Virus record (IMG/VR): IMGVR_UViG_3300032240_001042
Coordinates: 1 to 49,068 of that record
From: a virus
Reading direction: 5' to 3' (one strand)
Length of the DNA: 49,068 nucleotides
Shown: piece after piece, positions 23,170-44,716 of the stretch
Numbering within the stretch: position 1 is the stretch's first letter
Layout of the letters: every line of letters begins with the position of its first letter
The notes under the pieces: generated by a model
What the model saw: only the letters and a program-made list of their open reading frames with translations
The model's database searches: none
Told to the model about the DNA's origin: nothing
Position numbers and translations under genes: made by a program

Positions 23170-23793
23170 ATGGCTGATAATGCTAATAGACAGTCGTTAA
23201 TTACAAGTTTAGCCGATAGATATAAAAATCAGAATATTGGTGGAGCCTATAATGCTAATAAAGCGGGTACATCTACATATCATAATGATAATCCAGTATC
23301 TTTTAAAGCACAAACGGTTGACAATAGTGGCGAATTTTTTGTAAACCAACCGATAGGTATATCTAATTTCAAGGGAACCGAAGGACAAACTTATAATGAA
23401 ATTTCTGAATATGGTAAAGGAGTGGGAACTTCTACATATAATGCTCTCAATCTAAAGTCTCAAAAATCTATTGACTTTAACAAAAATTCCGAATTTCAAT
23501 TAAGCATCAATCAACAAAGTCCTTCTAATTTTAAAGGTATTGAGCACGAATTTGATTCTGCAACTATTAAAGAACAATCCAGTTTGGCGCAAAAAATAGG
23601 TACATCAACGTATGCACCTGATTCAAAATATATAAGTTATAATGCAAGAACATTTGCTAAAACTCCAAACTTTGTAGTGAAACAACCACTTAAAGTTACA
23701 AATTTCAAAGGTATTGATGATAATAAAAGTTTAAGATATAATGAAATTTCAAATTTAGCACAAGGGTTTAATAATAATAAGTATAAGCCTTAA
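23170..23793 (+). CDS. Repeat protein with about three SNFKG/YNEIS units
   Basis: A 207-residue paralogue of the preceding gene. It opens with NRQSLITSLADRY and GGAYNANKAGTST, then carries repeating elements: NSGEFFVNQPIGISNFKGTE with YNEISEYGKG; then NSEFQLSINQQSPSNFKGIE, whose YNEIS part is lost; then TPNFVVKQPLKVTNFKGIDD with YNEISNLAQG. GTSTY recurs at the unit borders. Its TAA stop (23791-23793) overlaps the stop of the convergent minus-strand gene through a TTAA palindrome. No known domain was recognised. The repeats may bind a partner in several copies. Confidence 0.6.
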   Translation: MADNANRQSLITSLADRYKNQNIGGAYNANKAGTSTYHNDNPVSFKAQTVDNSGEFFVNQPIGISNFKGTEGQTYNEISEYGKGVGTSTYNALNLKSQKSIDFNKNSEFQLSINQQSPSNFKGIEHEFDSATIKEQSSLAQKIGTSTYAPDSKYISYNARTFAKTPNFVVKQPLKVTNFKGIDDNKSLRYNEISNLAQGFNNNKYKP

Positions 23794-24188
23794 ACTTTTC
23801 TTATTCTAACTCTACCACCAACATATTCATTATAATAACTTGCATCGTATAAAGCATTAGCTAATATAATTTGTTTCATTTCTTCATAACTCAAATCTGA
23901 TTTACATTTACACCAAGATAGAATCTCAAATTTAAAGTCTTGTTTTCCTTGTTTAGCGACATCTTCATTTAATTGGTTGCAACTACCAGTATATGTACGC
24001 CAATCTGATTCTTTTGTTCCCCTGCGTTTATTAACTCTACCTTTAAGTGGTTTTTTAGAAGTTTTAAATTTGAGTAGTTTTTTACCTATGTATTTACGAT
24101 TATTTATATTATTGGTAATTTTATAAATAAATCCTATACATTCTTCTGGTATATCACCAGCGGTATTTGTCCAATGTCCATAATCCAT
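23790..24188 (-). CDS. GIY-YIG-type endonuclease, small
   Basis: A 132-residue minus-strand protein with the N-terminal signature GFIYKITNNINNRKYIGKK (residues 19-37), which matches the GIY ... YIG strand pair of GIY-YIG nucleases; the GIY half reads FIY here. A conserved-looking region follows: RRGTKESDWRTYTGS, then a helix ending DFKFEILSWCKC, and a C-terminal NALYDASYYNEYVGG that resembles the Asn/Glu end of Seg-like phage nucleases. It is smaller than T4 SegA (about 221 residues), so it lacks a long DNA-binding tail. It lies opposite to its neighbours between virion and replication genes, as expected of a free-standing homing endonuclease. Catalytic Arg and Glu candidates are visible but unproven. 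Confidence 0.7.
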   Translation of the reverse strand: MDYGHWTNTAGDIPEECIGFIYKITNNINNRKYIGKKLLKFKTSKKPLKGRVNKRRGTKESDWRTYTGSCNQLNEDVAKQGKQDFKFEILSWCKCKSDLSYEEMKQIILANALYDASYYNEYVGGRVRIRKV

Positions 24189-24234: not shown

Positions 24235-25182
24235 ATGTCTTTACAGCAGGAAAAAATACTAAGCGTATTGAATAAGCTATTGAAACAAACACCTAAATTG
24301 AGAAAGGGTGGCACTCAAGCTATGTATTTTTGTCCAAATTGCAAACATTACAAAAGAAAATTAGAAATATTGCTTACCGAAGGAAAATATAATTGTTGGG
24401 TATGTGAATTTGCCGGAATTAATTTTGGAACATTGTTGAAAAAACTCCATGCACCAAAAGAATCATATGAAATTGTCGGTGAAATTAAAAAAATTAAAAC
24501 TCAAAATGAGTTTGATGAATTTTTAAATCCTAGCGAGGAAGAAGAAACCTCTATAAAAAGCTTACCTGAAAATTTTAAATTTTTATCCGAACACAATAAA
24601 TCAATAGAATATAAACACGCATTACACTACTTAAAAAGTCGTGGAATCACGGAATGTGATATTTACCGATATAATATTGGATATTGTGATGCTGGGGCTT
24701 ATAGGCACAGAGTTATTGTTCCGTCATATGATATAGATGGTAATTTGAATTTTTTTAGTGGGCGAGATTTTTTTGACACGTCATGGTTGAAATATGTAAA
24801 TTGTGATTTCACTAAGAATACTATTGGTTTTGAAATGTTGGTAGATTTTACTGACGAAATAACATTAGTCGAAGGAGTGTTTGATGCAATCGCAGTTAGA
24901 AAAAATTGCATTCCTTTATTCGGTAAAACAATGTCAGAAAAATTAAAATTAAAATTACTTGAAAATCGACCAAAATCTGTTAATATTCTACTTGACAATG
25001 ATGCACTTAAAGATTCCATTAGAAACTGTGAGTATCTTATGAAAAACGGAGTAGAAGTGAAATTGGTCGAGTTGAAAGAAAAAGACCCATCCGTGCTAGG
25101 ACATGATAAAACATGGGAATATATAAATCAAACTAAAATCCTATCTTTTGATGATTTGTTTAGATATAAAATGAATTTATGA
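24235..25182 (+). CDS. 61: DNA primase, gp61-like
   Basis: Likely the primase that makes RNA primers for lagging-strand synthesis with the phage helicase. The N-terminus has a zinc-binding domain with C33, C36, C54 and C57 (YFCPNCKHYK ... KYNCWVCEFAG). The TOPRIM catalytic core is shown by LVEGVFDAIAVRKN (E213) and NILLDNDALKD (D254, D256), the acidic residues that bind metal. Length of 315 residues is close to T4 gp61 (342). The gene overlaps the fused gp47-gp46 gene by ATGA (25179-25182), placing replication and recombination functions in one operon. It lacks any TATTTATW motif, consistent with a different, possibly earlier, promoter. Confidence 0.85.
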   Translation: MSLQQEKILSVLNKLLKQTPKLRKGGTQAMYFCPNCKHYKRKLEILLTEGKYNCWVCEFAGINFGTLLKKLHAPKESYEIVGEIKKIKTQNEFDEFLNPSEEEETSIKSLPENFKFLSEHNKSIEYKHALHYLKSRGITECDIYRYNIGYCDAGAYRHRVIVPSYDIDGNLNFFSGRDFFDTSWLKYVNCDFTKNTIGFEMLVDFTDEITLVEGVFDAIAVRKNCIPLFGKTMSEKLKLKLLENRPKSVNILLDNDALKDSIRNCEYLMKNGVEVKLVELKEKDPSVLGHDKTWEYINQTKILSFDDLFRYKMNL

Positions 25183-28100
25183 TACAATTAGAAAATGATA
25201 TTAAGACCTTTACCAATGTGTTACATGTTGGTGATATACACATCAGATTGACACAACGCCATCAGGAATATGTCGAAGCGTTTGATAAACTATACAAAGC
25301 CGTAGATGAAACGCCTATCTCTACCTTGATATTGGTTGCAGGTGATATATTTCATAGCAAATCGGATTTGAGTCCAGAGGCAGTGAATCTTGCCGCAGAT
25401 TTCCTTAAAAATCTTGCTGACCGTCGCCCAACAATATTGATTGCAGGGAATCATGATGCCACATTAACTAACAAAAACCGAATGGATAGTTTGAGTCCAG
25501 TTGTGCAAGCATTAAATCATTCTAATTTATATTATTTAAAGGATACAGAAATATATTTGATTGGTAATGTGTTATTCAATAATTATTCCGTATTTTCCGA
25601 ACCAGAGACATATATACACTTTAATAAAATTCCAAATATTTATAAAAATAAAGTAGATTATACAATCGCTTTATATCATGGACCAGTAAATAATGCACTC
25701 ACTGACATGGGATATTCTGTAGTCAATAAACATGTCACTGTTAGCACGTTTGATGGACACCAGATGGTAATGTTGGGGGATATTCACAAACACCAAGTAT
25801 TGCAAGAATATGACCATCAAAATGATAAACCAATAATTGCATTTTGCGGCAGTTTGGTTCAACAAGACCACGGGGAAAATTTGTTAGGACATGGTTATCT
25901 TTATTGGGATTTGAAAAACAAATCATTTAAACACTTTGAAATTTCAAATGATTATGGATTTTTCACGGTAGAAGTAAATAAAGGAACATTGACCACCGAC
26001 GTAAAAAACATTCCTAAAAAGGCTAAATTACGAATCAAGTGTGTTGAAACTGTTCCCTCTGAAATAAAAACAATATTATCTGATATCAAGACCAAATCCG
26101 ACATTACTGATATAACATATGTTAGAATTGAGGCACCATCTAACAAAACCGATATAATCGACGCTTCTGAATTTAATTTATCAGGCATCAATGATGTGGA
26201 ATATCAAAACTCTTTAATTAAAACATATTTAGAGAAGAAAAAAATAGAGGTATCTGATGAAGTATTATCTGGAATATTTGCATTGAATAAAGAATTTAAC
26301 GTTGAGTTGAAAAAGAAATCCCCACCAAAAAATATTAGATGGAAACCCAAAAAATTTGAGTTTGATAATATGTTTAGTTATGGTGAATGTAACGTAGTAG
26401 ATTTTAGTAAAATGAACGGAGTCATGGGGTTATTTGCTAGCAATGCCAGTGGCAAGAGTAGTGTTTTTTCCGCATTAAGTTTTTGTTTATTTGACAAATG
26501 TGAAAGAGCACATAAAGCTGTTAACATTTTAAACAGTCAAAAAATGTCATTCAAATGCAAATTTAATTTTGAAATTGATGGCGTTGATTTCTTCATTGAA
26601 CGAAATGCGGTTGCAGATAAAAAAGGTAATGTTAAAGTTGATGTGAAATTTTGGAAAACCGTAGATGGTAAAGATGTAGATTTGAATGGTGAGAAAAGAG
26701 CAAACACGAACGATGTTATCAGGGATTATATTGGTAGTTATGATGATTTTATTTTGACTGTATTATCCGTCCAAAATAACAAAGCCGTGGGATTTGTAGA
26801 TATGGGTCATACTGATAGAAAAGATTTATTGGCACAATTTATTGGGCTGAATGTGTTTGATAAATTGGACGAACTTGCTTCTAAAAAAGCAAATGAAATT
26901 GCTGTTTTATTGAAAAACTTAAATAAAGAAGATTACGTAACAAAAATTCGAAATTTAGAAGAACGTATTGAGAATTACAAACAATCAATTTCAATCACTA
27001 CCAAAGAGAGTGATGCCGCCGCCGAAAAAAAAGAGAAATTGGACGCAACCTTGTTGGAATTAGTCGGAAAATTGGTCACAATAAATTCATCCATTTCTGA
27101 TATAAAAGGATTGGAGAAATTAAAAATTGATTTGACAAATTCGATTTCAACTGATGAAAATTCGGTGAGGCAATTAAAAAATCAAATTGTGGAATGTGGA
27201 GAAAAACTTTCAAAAGCGCAACTTCAAATTGATGAATTGACGAATAAAAATATCATCAAAAATTCGGAATCTTTAAAAAAGTTGACGTCAAAATATTCTA
27301 CATTGGAACATGAAATTAGATTGAAAATGTCCGCATTGAAGGCGAAAACTGAAAAGTTGGATAAATTAAATGAACATAAATATGACCCAAATTGTAATTT
27401 TTGTGTCAATAATATATTTGTAAAAGATGCATTCAATACTAAAACTGAAATTGAACACGATAAAAATGAACTAAAATTGTTAATGGACGATTTTAAATCC
27501 ACTAAAAATGATGCAGAAAACTTGGCGTGGGTAGAAAAAGAAATGGTAAATTATCAAAAATTACAAAATGATAAAATTACCATAGAATCTAACACATCGA
27601 AATTGAATAATGACATTTTGAGAATAGAAAATGTAATTGGCCAAAATAAAAATAAATTGTCTAAAGTAGAAGATAGTATTATAAAGTTCTATCAAGAAAA
27701 AGAAACCATTCAAAATAATAACGCTATCAATGTTGAAATAGGGGCAGTAAAACTTCGTATTGCTGACATTGTGTTGATATATAAAACCAAAAATAACGAT
27801 TTGATGGCTTTAAATGCACGTATGCAAAGTTGTATCACGGAAAAAACTACTATAGAAACTACCGTGGAAAAGGTCAAAGAGTTAGAGGCAAAATCCGAAA
27901 ATTATAAATATTATTTACAAGCTATTAATCGTAATGGTATTCCATATGAATTAATTTCTCAAACAATGCCCGTAATTGAAAAGGAAGTTAATGATATACT
28001 ACATCAAATTGTTGACTTTACCATATCTTTCAATGCTGATGGTGAAAATATTTATGCATATATAGTATATGAAGATAAAAAATGGTTGGTGGAAATGGGC

Positions 28101-28373
28101 AGTGGTATGGAGAAATTCATAAGTTCATTGGCTATACGAGTGGCATTGACCAAAATAAGTAATATTCCACGTCCAAACTTCGTTATATTCGATGAAGGGT
28201 GGGGAACTTTGGATTCACATCATATTAGCGAAGTCAAGTTAGTATTTGACTTTTTAAAGACACAATTTGACTTTATAATGATTATTTCGCACATTGATTC
28301 TATAAAAGATACTGTGGATAAAGTTTTGGAAATCAATAAAAACAACGGATTCTCACAAATTAAATACCTCTGA
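25179..28373 (+). CDS. 47-46: Fused Mre11-type nuclease and Rad50-type ATPase (gp47-gp46)
   Basis: One 1064-residue ORF joins what are two proteins in T4. Residues about 1-385 are the SbcD/Mre11 phosphoesterase: D19 and H21 (VGDIHIR), D56 (VAGDIFH), N91-H92-D93 (GNHDA), YHGPVN and D201/H203/H205 (LGDIHKHQ) would bind two metal ions. Residues about 386-1064 are the SbcC/Rad50 ATPase: Walker A LFASNASGKSS (K426; its first Gly is Ala420), two long coiled coils flanking a zinc hook with C739 and C742 (DPNCNFCVNN), an ABC signature GSGMEKF (974-980), and Walker B VIFDEGWGTLD (D1005, E1006). The complex processes DNA ends for recombination-dependent replication. The order matches gene 47 before 46, so loss of an intergenic stop would explain it. 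No frameshift is needed and the frame is open throughout. Confidence 0.9.
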   Translation: MIQLENDIKTFTNVLHVGDIHIRLTQRHQEYVEAFDKLYKAVDETPISTLILVAGDIFHSKSDLSPEAVNLAADFLKNLADRRPTILIAGNHDATLTNKNRMDSLSPVVQALNHSNLYYLKDTEIYLIGNVLFNNYSVFSEPETYIHFNKIPNIYKNKVDYTIALYHGPVNNALTDMGYSVVNKHVTVSTFDGHQMVMLGDIHKHQVLQEYDHQNDKPIIAFCGSLVQQDHGENLLGHGYLYWDLKNKSFKHFEISNDYGFFTVEVNKGTLTTDVKNIPKKAKLRIKCVETVPSEIKTILSDIKTKSDITDITYVRIEAPSNKTDIIDASEFNLSGINDVEYQNSLIKTYLEKKKIEVSDEVLSGIFALNKEFNVELKKKSPPKNIRWKPKKFEFDNMFSYGECNVVDFSKMNGVMGLFASNASGKSSVFSALSFCLFDKCERAHKAVNILNSQKMSFKCKFNFEIDGVDFFIERNAVADKKGNVKVDVKFWKTVDGKDVDLNGEKRANTNDVIRDYIGSYDDFILTVLSVQNNKAVGFVDMGHTDRKDLLAQFIGLNVFDKLDELASKKANEIAVLLKNLNKEDYVTKIRNLEERIENYKQSISITTKESDAAAEKKEKLDATLLELVGKLVTINSSISDIKGLEKLKIDLTNSISTDENSVRQLKNQIVECGEKLSKAQLQIDELTNKNIIKNSESLKKLTSKYSTLEHEIRLKMSALKAKTEKLDKLNEHKYDPNCNFCVNNIFVKDAFNTKTEIEHDKNELKLLMDDFKSTKNDAENLAWVEKEMVNYQKLQNDKITIESNTSKLNNDILRIENVIGQNKNKLSKVEDSIIKFYQEKETIQNNNAINVEIGAVKLRIADIVLIYKTKNNDLMALNARMQSCITEKTTIETTVEKVKELEAKSENYKYYLQAINRNGIPYELISQTMPVIEKEVNDILHQIVDFTISFNADGENIYAYIVYEDKKWLVEMGSGMEKFISSLAIRVALTKISNIPRPNFVIFDEGWGTLDSHHISEVKLVFDFLKTQFDFIMIISHIDSIKDTVDKVLEINKNNGFSQIKYL

Positions 28374-35796: not shown

Positions 35797-38502
35797 ATGG
35801 CAAATGACCCAAAAAATTTGAGAGAAGTAATAAAGGAAGAGTATCGAAAATGTTTACTCGACCCGATGTATTTCATGAAAAAATACGTAAAAATCCAACA
35901 TCAAACTCGTGGTATTATTCCATTTGAATTATATCCATTTCAAGAAAATGCTCTTCAAGAATTTATTGATTTTGATAGAACGATTGTGTTAAAATCTCGT
36001 CAAATGGGTATATCAACTTTATGTTCTGCATATGCGTTATGGACAATGATTTTTAATCCAGGTAAAAATGTATTAATTATTTCCACAAAGCAAGATACTT
36101 CAAAAGAAATTGTATCAAAAATCAGACTAGCAAATAACAATTTACCAAGCTGGTTGAAAATTCAAACTGTCGAAGATAATAGATTGTCGTTGAAATTTAA
36201 AAATGAATCCAAAGTTGAGGCGGCGTCTTCTTCTTCCGATTCCGTTCGTGGTAAATCTGCATATTTATTGATATTGGACGAATGTGCATTTATTGATGGT
36301 ATTGAAGATATTTGGACTTCTGCTCAACAAACGATGGCAACAGGTGGTAGAGCTATTTTATTATCTACACCAAATGGAGTAGGTAATTTTTTTCATAAAA
36401 CTTGGGTAGATGCTGTAGCTAAAAAAAATCAATTTCATACTATCAATCTTAGATGGAATTTACATCCTGACCGTGACCAAACTTGGCGTGATAGACAAAC
36501 TATTGAATTGGGTGCGAAAAAAGCAGCACAAGAATGTTTTAGTAGTGATGTTATTGTATATACTTATAATGGACCCAAAAAAATATCAGATATTAAAATT
36601 GGCGATAAAGTTTTGACTCACAATGGGCGATTTAAGAATGTAAATTATTTATTTAAACATTCCAAATTGACAAAAAAAATATCTTCAACCAATAATTATA
36701 TAGAAAAATTTGTAACAGAAAATCACCCTTTTTTAACTGATGATTCGTGGAAACCCGTTGGGAATATCACAGATTCGGATATAATTTTTACATTTCCAAC
36801 AGAAAACACAATATCATCTTCGGAACAGACACTGGATATATACAATATCATGGAGCCTAAATATTTTAAAAAAATATTATGTGAAAATGATTCTAAGTTT
36901 TACATCAATGATAGAAAACATAAAACAGTATGCAATCGATATATAAAAATTGGATATGATTTTGGTTATATATTGGGACTTTATTTGGCTGAAGGAAGTG
37001 GAAATAGATTAAGAAAAACTTTCAATTTCGATTATAAAAAAGAAAAAAATGGATGGCCGGAAAAAATTAAAATTATGATTGAAAATTTATTTGGATTATC
37101 AAATCATAATTTTCGTCTTTTGGGTAACACTGGACATTTATCATTTTGTTCTGAAGTGTTTTCTTATATGGTCGATATGTTTTGCGATGGGGGAGATTGT
37201 TATTCAAAAAAATTGTCAAAATTTTCATATCAAGTAATGAATAAAGAATTGGCCAAGGGAATTGTGGATGGCGTATTTCGTGGCGACGGTTGCCTTAAAA
37301 AAGAATATAATAAAAAATTTGTCACGAGCAGCGAATCATTGTTTTATGATGTATCATATCTTTTAAATTTATTGTCCATTACGGATTTTTCAATGCGAAA
37401 AAGTAAAACTGGAGGAAATATTGGATTTATAGAAGGAAGAAAGTATGTCGAGAGTCCTATGTGGGAAATATCCGTTCGAAAAACAAAAAATATTGATGTT
37501 ACGGAGTTGTCCGATATTGTTAATATACCAATTTCAAATCAAGCATCTGTGACACTATCGGATGGACAAATACGAGATGTATATAATTTATCAGTGGAGG
37601 ATGATAATTCATATGTTACCGAATATGGAATTGTTCATAATTGTGATTGCGAATTTCTTTCATCTGGTAATACTGTGGTCGAAATAAATTTAATTGAAGA
37701 ACTTAAAAAGAATGCTATCGACCCTATTGAGACTCGTGGTAGTGATTATAGTTTTTGGATATGGGAACGTCCTGATATGTCAAAAAATTATTTAATAAGT
37801 GCTGACGTTGCTCGTGGCGATGGTAATGATTATAGTGCATTTCAAGTGATTGAGCCTGAATCTATGGCACAAGTTGCTGAATTTAAAGGCGTGATAGGAA
37901 CAAAAGAATATGGTAATATGTTGGTAGCCGTTGCCACCGAATATAATACTGCATTGCTTGTTATAGAAAATTCGACATATGGATGGGCAGTTATTCAGCA
38001 GGTTATAGACCGAGGGTATCCAAATTTATTTTATAGTAGTGCAGATTTGCAATATGTGGATGTGGAGCAACACGCAACAAATAGATTAAATGCTTTGGAT
38101 AAAAAAATGGTTCCTGGATTCACAAACAGCACAAAAACCCGACCACTTGCTATTGAAAAACTTGAGACATGTATTCGTGAAAAAGTATTTAATATTCGTT
38201 CTAATAGATTGTTAGATGAATTAAGCGTATTTGTTTGGCACAATGGTAAGGCCGAAGCGATGCGAGGATACAATGATGATTTGGTTATTAGTGCTGCAAT
38301 TGGGTTGTGGATTAGAGATACCGCATTAAGATTACGACGAGAAGCAATGGATGTCAATCGAGTTATATTGAGCGGTATAAAAAGAACGGGATATGACAAT
38401 TCTAACAGCTTGAAATACACCAAAAACTCCGAAATGGCTCAAAAATCATGGACTTTTGAGACGGGTCGTGAGAAAAATCAATCATTAAATTGGTTATTAT
38501 AA
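35797..38502 (+). CDS. 17: Terminase large subunit gp17-like, interrupted by an intein
   Basis: The packaging motor ATPase and nuclease. The ATPase part has the Walker A region LKSRQMGIST (residues 65-74; a deviant form without the usual GK), Walker B LLILDECAFID (157-167), and LLSTPNG (188-194). The nuclease part has D670 (ISADVARGDG), E724 (LLVIENSTYG) and a late Asp in GYNDDLVISAA. Residues 247-615 are an intein inserted between QE and CDCEF, a conserved stretch in T4-like terminases. After splicing the protein would be 532 residues (T4 gp17 is 610). Lack of splicing would destroy the enzyme, because the ATPase and nuclease would be separated by 369 residues. It follows the upstream gene by one base and is followed by the portal gene. 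Confidence 0.95.
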   Translation: MANDPKNLREVIKEEYRKCLLDPMYFMKKYVKIQHQTRGIIPFELYPFQENALQEFIDFDRTIVLKSRQMGISTLCSAYALWTMIFNPGKNVLIISTKQDTSKEIVSKIRLANNNLPSWLKIQTVEDNRLSLKFKNESKVEAASSSSDSVRGKSAYLLILDECAFIDGIEDIWTSAQQTMATGGRAILLSTPNGVGNFFHKTWVDAVAKKNQFHTINLRWNLHPDRDQTWRDRQTIELGAKKAAQECFSSDVIVYTYNGPKKISDIKIGDKVLTHNGRFKNVNYLFKHSKLTKKISSTNNYIEKFVTENHPFLTDDSWKPVGNITDSDIIFTFPTENTISSSEQTLDIYNIMEPKYFKKILCENDSKFYINDRKHKTVCNRYIKIGYDFGYILGLYLAEGSGNRLRKTFNFDYKKEKNGWPEKIKIMIENLFGLSNHNFRLLGNTGHLSFCSEVFSYMVDMFCDGGDCYSKKLSKFSYQVMNKELAKGIVDGVFRGDGCLKKEYNKKFVTSSESLFYDVSYLLNLLSITDFSMRKSKTGGNIGFIEGRKYVESPMWEISVRKTKNIDVTELSDIVNIPISNQASVTLSDGQIRDVYNLSVEDDNSYVTEYGIVHNCDCEFLSSGNTVVEINLIEELKKNAIDPIETRGSDYSFWIWERPDMSKNYLISADVARGDGNDYSAFQVIEPESMAQVAEFKGVIGTKEYGNMLVAVATEYNTALLVIENSTYGWAVIQQVIDRGYPNLFYSSADLQYVDVEQHATNRLNALDKKMVPGFTNSTKTRPLAIEKLETCIREKVFNIRSNRLLDELSVFVWHNGKAEAMRGYNDDLVISAAIGLWIRDTALRLRREAMDVNRVILSGIKRTGYDNSNSLKYTKNSEMAQKSWTFETGREKNQSLNWLL
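36535..37641 (+). mobile_element. Intein with LAGLIDADG homing endonuclease inside the terminase
   Basis: A 369-residue intein. It starts with Cys (C247, block A CFSSDVIVYTYNGPKKISD, then IKIGDKVLTHNG), has the block B ENHPFLTDD, two LAGLIDADG-type motifs (YILGLYLAEGSG and LAKGIVDGVFRGDGC), block F (DVYNLSVEDDNSYVTEYGIV) and ends in HN before the Cys+1 of the host protein (C616). These are all residues needed for splicing, so it should be active. The insertion site lies in the strongly conserved QECDCEF stretch, which fits homing into a slow-changing site. The endonuclease motifs are not obviously damaged, though the catalytic Asp positions read Glu (LAEG) and Asp (RGDG). Confidence 0.93.
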
Positions 38503-43042: not shown

Positions 43043-44716
43043 ATGAAAAATTGGATTGATAAAAATTTAATGGTTAATAATAAATTTGTAGCCAAACGAC
43101 TTAAAAAAGAGTGGTTTAGTAATAATGGATTTATAAATGAATATAATCAAATAATCGCCAAAACAGCTTTCCCCCTGTCTTCCGATAAATTTTCCGAAAG
43201 ATTGTGGCACATTTGTAATGATTCAACGTCGTCAATAAAATGTCATAATTCACAATGCAACAATATTCCAGCATTTACAGGATTTTTCACTGGATATTTA
43301 AAATATTGTTGTAATCGGTGTGCTCAAACGGATGATGTTGTAATAAACAAAATTAAGGTGACAAATTTAGAAAAATATGGAAATGAATATGGTTTACAAT
43401 CGACAATTATAAAAGATAAAATTAAAAAAACAAATCTTCAAAAATATGGTGTGGAAAATGTATCACAGATAGATTCGGTAAAATTAAAGAAAAAGAAAAC
43501 GTGTATGGAAAATCACGGAGTTGATTATTTTTTGGAAAAACAAAAGGAAAAAGAATGTGCGGTATATAAAAAATACGGAGTCAAAAATGTTCAACAGGTA
43601 TCGGAAATTAAAAATAAAACGGCAAAAACTCGCCGTTTGGATTTTTATGATAGTTTATTTTCTACAAATAGGTTGCAAGAATTGGCAACCCCGATGTTTT
43701 CTAAAAATGACTATGTTTCGGGCGGATTATTTGAAAAATATAAATTTAAATGCAATAAATGTTGCCATGAATTTTTAGATTGTTTGGAGGACGGTGATTT
43801 ACCACGGTGTCCGAAATGTTATAAATCCAATTCATATTTTCAAATGGAAATATATGATTATATTAAAACTCTGACCGACGAATCTAATTTGATTATGAAT
43901 TGTAAAACGGTATTAACAAATAAAGATATTGATATTTATATACCTCATTTAAAATTGGCGATTGAGTGTGATGGTTTATATTGGCACGGTGAAATAAATG
44001 GTAACAAAGATAAAAAATACCATTTAAACAAAACCATTGAGTGTGAAAATAAAAACATTCATTTAATTCATATATTTGAGGACGAGTGGATGTTAAAAAA
44101 AGATGTGGTTAAATCAAAACTGACTAATTTTTTTAAACAAAACGATTCTATATATGCCCGAAAATGTGTAATCAAACCTATTAATAACGATGAATGTCAA
44201 AAGTTTTTAATAAATAATCATATACAGGGAAAAGACAATAGTTCAATTCAATATGGATTGTATTATAATGATAAATTGGTTATGGCTGCGACATTTGGGA
44301 ATCTACGAATGATTATGGGAAATGCTCACCAAAAAAATGTATATGAATTATACAGATTATGTTCGAGTATAAACGTGGTCGGTGGAGCAAGTAAACTAAT
44401 TAAACATTTTATAAAACAACATAGTCCGATTAAAATCATAAGTTATGCTGATAGACGATATACGTATCGACATAATGCATTCTATGAAAAAATTGGATTC
44501 AAATTAATAAATGAGGGGGTGCCTAACTATTGGTATTATGGTAAATATACTAATTATAAAAGATTTCACAGATTTTCATTTTCCAAACAAAAATTATCAA
44601 CCAAACTGGAAAATTTCGATGAATCCTTATCTGAATGGGAAAATATGAAGAATAATGGGTATGATAGAATATGGGATTGTGGTAGTATAAAATATGAATT
44701 AAATGTGAATTTATGA
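43043..44716 (+). CDS. Free-standing homing endonuclease-like protein with Vsr-type nuclease core
   Basis: A 557-residue protein with the features of phage homing endonucleases. The N-terminal region has two Cys-pair zinc motifs (IKCHNSQCNN and YCCNRCAQT) and tandem DNA-binding-like repeats around residues 110-200 (NLEKYGNEYGLQ, NLQKYGVENVSQ, YKKYGVKNVQQV). A third zinc ribbon (FKCNKCCHEF ... RCPKC) precedes a nuclease core at about residues 290-350: DIDIYIPHLKLAIECDGLYW then HGE, HLIHIFEDEW, of the type found in Vsr-like (EDxHD) endonucleases. The C-terminal 190 residues have an acetyltransferase-like fold pattern (LVMAATFGNLRMIMG; NVYELYRLCSSINVVGGASK). It is inserted between gp21 and the next head gene. 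No TATTTATW motif precedes it. Activity is not certain. Confidence 0.8.
   Translation: MKNWIDKNLMVNNKFVAKRLKKEWFSNNGFINEYNQIIAKTAFPLSSDKFSERLWHICNDSTSSIKCHNSQCNNIPAFTGFFTGYLKYCCNRCAQTDDVVINKIKVTNLEKYGNEYGLQSTIIKDKIKKTNLQKYGVENVSQIDSVKLKKKKTCMENHGVDYFLEKQKEKECAVYKKYGVKNVQQVSEIKNKTAKTRRLDFYDSLFSTNRLQELATPMFSKNDYVSGGLFEKYKFKCNKCCHEFLDCLEDGDLPRCPKCYKSNSYFQMEIYDYIKTLTDESNLIMNCKTVLTNKDIDIYIPHLKLAIECDGLYWHGEINGNKDKKYHLNKTIECENKNIHLIHIFEDEWMLKKDVVKSKLTNFFKQNDSIYARKCVIKPINNDECQKFLINNHIQGKDNSSIQYGLYYNDKLVMAATFGNLRMIMGNAHQKNVYELYRLCSSINVVGGASKLIKHFIKQHSPIKIISYADRRYTYRHNAFYEKIGFKLINEGVPNYWYYGKYTNYKRFHRFSFSKQKLSTKLENFDESLSEWENMKNNGYDRIWDCGSIKYELNVNL

Follow-up and report, generated by a model that had tools for sequence, protein, structure and literature searches.

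Positions 25179 to 28373 of the window (the whole 49,068-nucleotide stretch of viral DNA analyzed here) were occupied by one plus-strand frame, which opened with an ATG at 25179, ran to its stop codon at 28373 without internal stops, and encoded a protein with Mre11 and Rad50 domains (Table 1). The minus strand of this interval was rich in stops. Pfam assigned Metallophos to residues 13 to 203 (E = 9e-13) and AAA_23 to residues 396 to 604 (E = 2e-10), which bears out the earlier note's claim of one uninterrupted Mre11 and Rad50 frame. The PHROGs matches were the SbcC-like family phrog_77 and the DNA repair exonuclease phrog_7339, and a sequence search against solved structures returned Rad50, SbcC, Mre11, and SbcD chains. 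In addition, the structure was predicted from an alignment of 36 relatives, with Microcystis phage Mel-JY01 left out (mean pLDDT, 80.9; pTM, 0.42). The model contained, in order, the core, capping domain, helix-loop-helix, Rad50 head, and coiled coil with hook; the mutual orientation of its nuclease and ATPase halves is uncertain. Its structural matches in the PDB were Mre11-Rad50 complexes and SMC-type heads. The fusion is genuine, and its Mre11 and Rad50 domains are both complete.

Table 1. Features of the fusion gene and its neighborhood in the window
Feature	Position	Strand	Basis or remark
Homing-endonuclease-like gene, GIY-YIG SegE type, free-standing	23790-24188	-	Beside primase
DnaG-type primase	24235-25182	+	Upstream; stop overlaps fusion start (ATGA)
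Single-chain Mre11-Rad50 (SbcD-SbcC, gp47-gp46-like) fusion, 1064 aa	25179-28373	+	ORF, domains, predicted structure, structural matches
Mre11 phosphodiesterase core, residues ~1-235	25179-25883	+	Domain, motif, and structure evidence
Mre11 capping domain, residues ~239-316	25893-26126	+	Predicted secondary structure; named after the analogous domain of T. maritima Mre11 (PMC3175470)
Rad50-binding helix-loop-helix, helices 340-353 and 360-376	26196-26306	+	Predicted structure, PMC3175470
Nuclease/ATPase linker, residues ~377-387, ELKKKSPPKNI	26307-26339	+	Relatives' alignment, predicted structure
Rad50 N-terminal ATPase lobe	26340-26846	+	Pfam, motifs, predicted structure
Walker A, A420-S-N-A-S-G-K-S427	26436-26459	+	Motif, inside Rad50 N-lobe
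Antiparallel coiled coil, helices ~558-730 and 746-916	26850-27926	+	Motifs, predicted structure
Zinc hook, C739-N-F-C742	27393-27404	+	Inside coiled coil
Rad50 C-terminal ATPase lobe: S975-G-M-E978, Walker B D1005-E1006, D-loop D1012, H1038	27939-28370	+	Structure-chain matches, motifs, predicted structure
Homing-endonuclease-like gene, HNH/DUF7487, free-standing	43043-44716	+	After head maturation protease

The primase was found directly upstream of the fusion in 147 of the 148 testable loci, some contigs being counted twice. In the window, the primase and Mre11-Rad50 pair (24235-28373) lies within a structural gene cluster, with tail sheath, terminase, and portal genes nearby. The terminase large subunit (35797-38502, 901 aa) carries an intein-like insert at approximately residues 246 to 637 (CFSSD...YGIVHN^C), for which the LAGLIDADG and intein-splicing matches were both weak.

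The Rad50 half consisted of a bipartite ABC head (A420xxxxGKS on one side, SGME and DE1005-1006 on the other) split by a coiled coil with C739xxC742. The Walker A (residues 420 to 427), zinc hook, signature (S975 to E978), and Walker B reported earlier were thus all found. The general P-loop pattern is [AG]xxxxGK[ST], which A420 fits. An Ala in place of the first Gly had been pointed out at this position; the substitution is real but unremarkable, and an unusual lesion was ruled out because residue 420 was Ala in 36 of 36 relatives. Other phage Rad50 proteins likewise vary there. The ABC signature of the fusion family was SGME or SGLE, as opposed to SGGE/Q.

In the Mre11 half, we located D19xH21, G55-D56, G90-N91-H92-D93, H167, and G200-D201-I202-H203. 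When conservation was counted over 36 diverse relatives, the Mre11/SbcD motif set (DxH, GDxx[DH], GNHD, and the motif IV His) was complete and conserved, but GHxH was replaced by GDIH. The statement that all Mre11 metal-binding motifs are present therefore holds for DxH, GD, GNHD, and H167 and fails for GHxH. Asp201, whose aligned counterpart in T. maritima Mre11 is the first His of GHIH, was Asp in every one of the 36 relatives, and Gln replaced His21 in four of them. The exchange of a metal-ligand His for Asp, together with these Gln residues, could mean that the nuclease half has become a structural remnant and that the protein's main role is that of an ATP-driven factor for end tethering or clamping. 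However, the His21 cases aside, the remaining ligands and GNHD were invariant, Asp is able to bind metal, and the invariance of Asp201 suggests functional selection. In addition, GDLH is found in split T5-like SbcD proteins, and both residue changes recur in Mimivirus R555, where Asp takes the place of the first GHxH His and His that of the third Asp in GDxxD (PMC3175470). A remnant nuclease is therefore quite improbable, and Asp201, by its alignment, is a known metal-site variant and not a lost motif. The strands and helices predicted for the capping domain and the helix-loop-helix followed in order at residues 239 to 316 and 340 to 376. As far as its sequence indicates, the fusion belongs with the Mre11/SbcD nucleases, and it is predicted to have their Mn-dependent nuclease activity.

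Next, relatives of the fusion were collected. In IMG/VR, 80 loci were retained from a scan with the single fusion sequence, and scanning with a profile gave at least 583 contigs with confirmed relatives. The fetched set comprised approximately 139 distinct contigs after duplicates were removed by name, and in 136 of these one frame spanned both domains. The exceptions were L044 (split in Mre11), L048/L125 (one contig, whose frame changes close to the hook), and L120 (which has a stop around residue 943). The cultured phage Mel-JY01, with a complete genome of 190 kb, has its sole AAA_23 match and its sole Metallophos match in its fusion. A genome-collection scan added three fusions on contigs binned as archaeal, Chloroflexi, and gammaproteobacterial MAGs, which are probably phage contigs in the bins, whereas a search of plasmids yielded just one weak, Rad50-only match. 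The fusion is the standard form in a large, mostly aquatic phage family. The rarity that the earlier note had attributed to it is thus contradicted by the number of related contigs, by the presence of the fusion in most relatives, which that note itself had named as grounds for refutation, and by the description of the class in 2011 (PMC3175470).

These relatives also bear on the junction itself. Most phages of the reference collections have two genes, and the junction was judged by comparison with relatives; both points leave room for an assembly or sequencing error that merged two genes by deleting the stop of one and the start of the next. However, the linker leads into RNIxWKPKKFEFDNMFSYG, which is conserved among relatives, and the in-frame junction with RNIxWKPKKFEF was present in 136 of the approximately 139 contigs, in Mel-JY01, and in the three contigs from prokaryotic bins. 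No fetched contig had a break between the Mre11 and Rad50 domains. The error that had been considered for positions 26300 to 26400 is excluded by this comparison, as independent contigs keep the linker in frame, and its probability is close to nil. Another possibility is that the full-length protein is accompanied by a free Rad50 made from an internal start, or that the chain is cut after synthesis. Overlapping internal initiation occurs in other phage genes, and a TTG codon lies close to the linker. However, neither an ATG nor a start preceded by an RBS was conserved at the right place among the 36 relatives compared, and the search of the family gave no plausible start from which Rad50 could be made alone, which makes this possibility very improbable. 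The locus does not have the two separate genes of the T4 type. A fixed 1:1 ratio, as claimed earlier, follows from the single-chain fusion; close tethering of nuclease to ATPase would be consistent with the predicted structure.

In a tree of Rad50 heads, all fused phage members and the two re-split ones were separated from ten split phage proteins with branch support of 100/99. This topology fits one fusion event in this phage lineage, although some branches were long. A more distant fusion of 1202 aa, with 27% identity and no primase beside it, was present in the 735-kb phage record LR756501.1, whose genome has additional AAA_23 and Metallophos genes.

In the two re-split relatives, L044 (5986-9335) and L083 (3935-8157), the fused gene was split again inside Mre11, directly after GDIHK[PR]Q. 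Their first chains ended in a similar tail of approximately 33 residues, and the second chains, of approximately 859 aa, had their own ATG. A 305-aa HNH/TnsA-like endonuclease gene lay between the parts in L083, and only a short gap in L044. Because the two were not sisters on the Rad50 tree, a homing element is suggested to have used one site twice or to have moved between lineages. A group I intron was rejected as the cause of the split, since an Rfam match was absent. In another relative (L137, 5001-9161), the fusion ORF was 1387 aa long and contained an in-frame insert of approximately 325 residues at Mre11 motif III (GNHD^C); its intein-splicing match fell below the threshold.

We compared the fusion with known systems. 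A 2011 study reported Mre11/Rad50 fusions from Mimivirus, eukaryotes, bacteria, plasmids, and Bacillus phage 0305phi8-36 and found that they were not monophyletic; in aquatic metagenomes, the viral fractions were enriched in R555-like sequences, for which a phage origin was suspected (Yoshida et al., PMC3175470). The fusion in this phage is real and of a kind already published, as Mimivirus R555. Like R555 and the Tupanvirus protein A0A6N1NVE8, it has Mre11 and then Rad50 in one continuous ORF, with a helix-loop-helix and a short linker, and it shares both residue changes of the metal site. In contrast, it is carried by tailed phages, and R555 is approximately 300 residues longer (1351 aa versus 1064 aa). 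Among viral proteins, the top structural matches ran the full length and were repair proteins from giant viruses, among them Tupanvirus and Yasminevirus; Tenacibaculum phages ranked next, and identity to the Tupanvirus protein was 26% over the structural alignment. Common descent with the R555 and giant-virus fusions may be considered in view of these full-length matches and the common residue changes, but the Rad50 tree covered phage proteins, and the published fusions were not monophyletic. Mel-JY01 WWT39521.1 belongs to the same fusion family and has primase and GIY-YIG neighbors but showed 36.6% identity, with a small ORF between primase and fusion. T4 gp47/gp46 come from these two protein families as well and presumably share the resection role; however, they are encoded by two genes with two small genes between them, have GHFH and a Walker A starting with Gly, and belong to the split type whose Rad50 heads lie across the supported branch. 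The T5-like D12/D13 (SbcD/SbcC) share the GDxH substitution but are two overlapping genes. E. coli SbcCD and the archaeal and T. maritima Mre11-Rad50 complexes have the same folds and motifs, with separate chains, GHxH, and SGGE/Q.

Altogether, the fusion is very probably the phage's own gp46/gp47-type DNA-end-processing nuclease in the form of one polypeptide. The role proposed for T4 Gp46/Gp47 is resection of double-strand ends in support of recombination-dependent replication (PMC3016280), and by family membership and analogy with them, end resection is the most likely role here. In T. maritima, the Mre11 C-terminus lies approximately 28 Å from the Rad50 N-terminus (Yoshida et al., PMC3175470), so a linker of 9 to 12 residues suffices; that of the fusion has approximately 11. 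We infer a dimer in which two chains would pair through their Mre11 domains and ATP-bound Rad50 heads, so that the usual M2R2 assembly would need two chains in place of four. The Rad50 part would gate the nuclease by binding and hydrolyzing ATP, and the nuclease would resect double-strand ends, serving repair and recombination-dependent replication. Translation of the fusion adjoins that of the phage primase and is probably coupled to it. With Asp in place of a metal-ligand His at residue 201 and SGME, as opposed to SGGE/Q, as its signature, the protein could differ in activity from the textbook complex. That GDxH and SGME, fixed together with the fusion, define a distinct single-chain class with another nuclease specificity or gating than two-chain complexes is unlikely. 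As the window is a 49-kb fragment, separate SbcC/SbcD genes may exist elsewhere in this phage.

Annotation often hides the fusion; WWT39521.1, for example, is named "AAA domain containing protein," which refers to the ATPase domain only. A compact single-chain complex of approximately 120 kDa with fixed stoichiometry could suit structural studies of Mre11 gating by Rad50. In addition, the fusion family supports the 2011 proposal that the R555-like fusions of aquatic viral metagenomes derive from phages.
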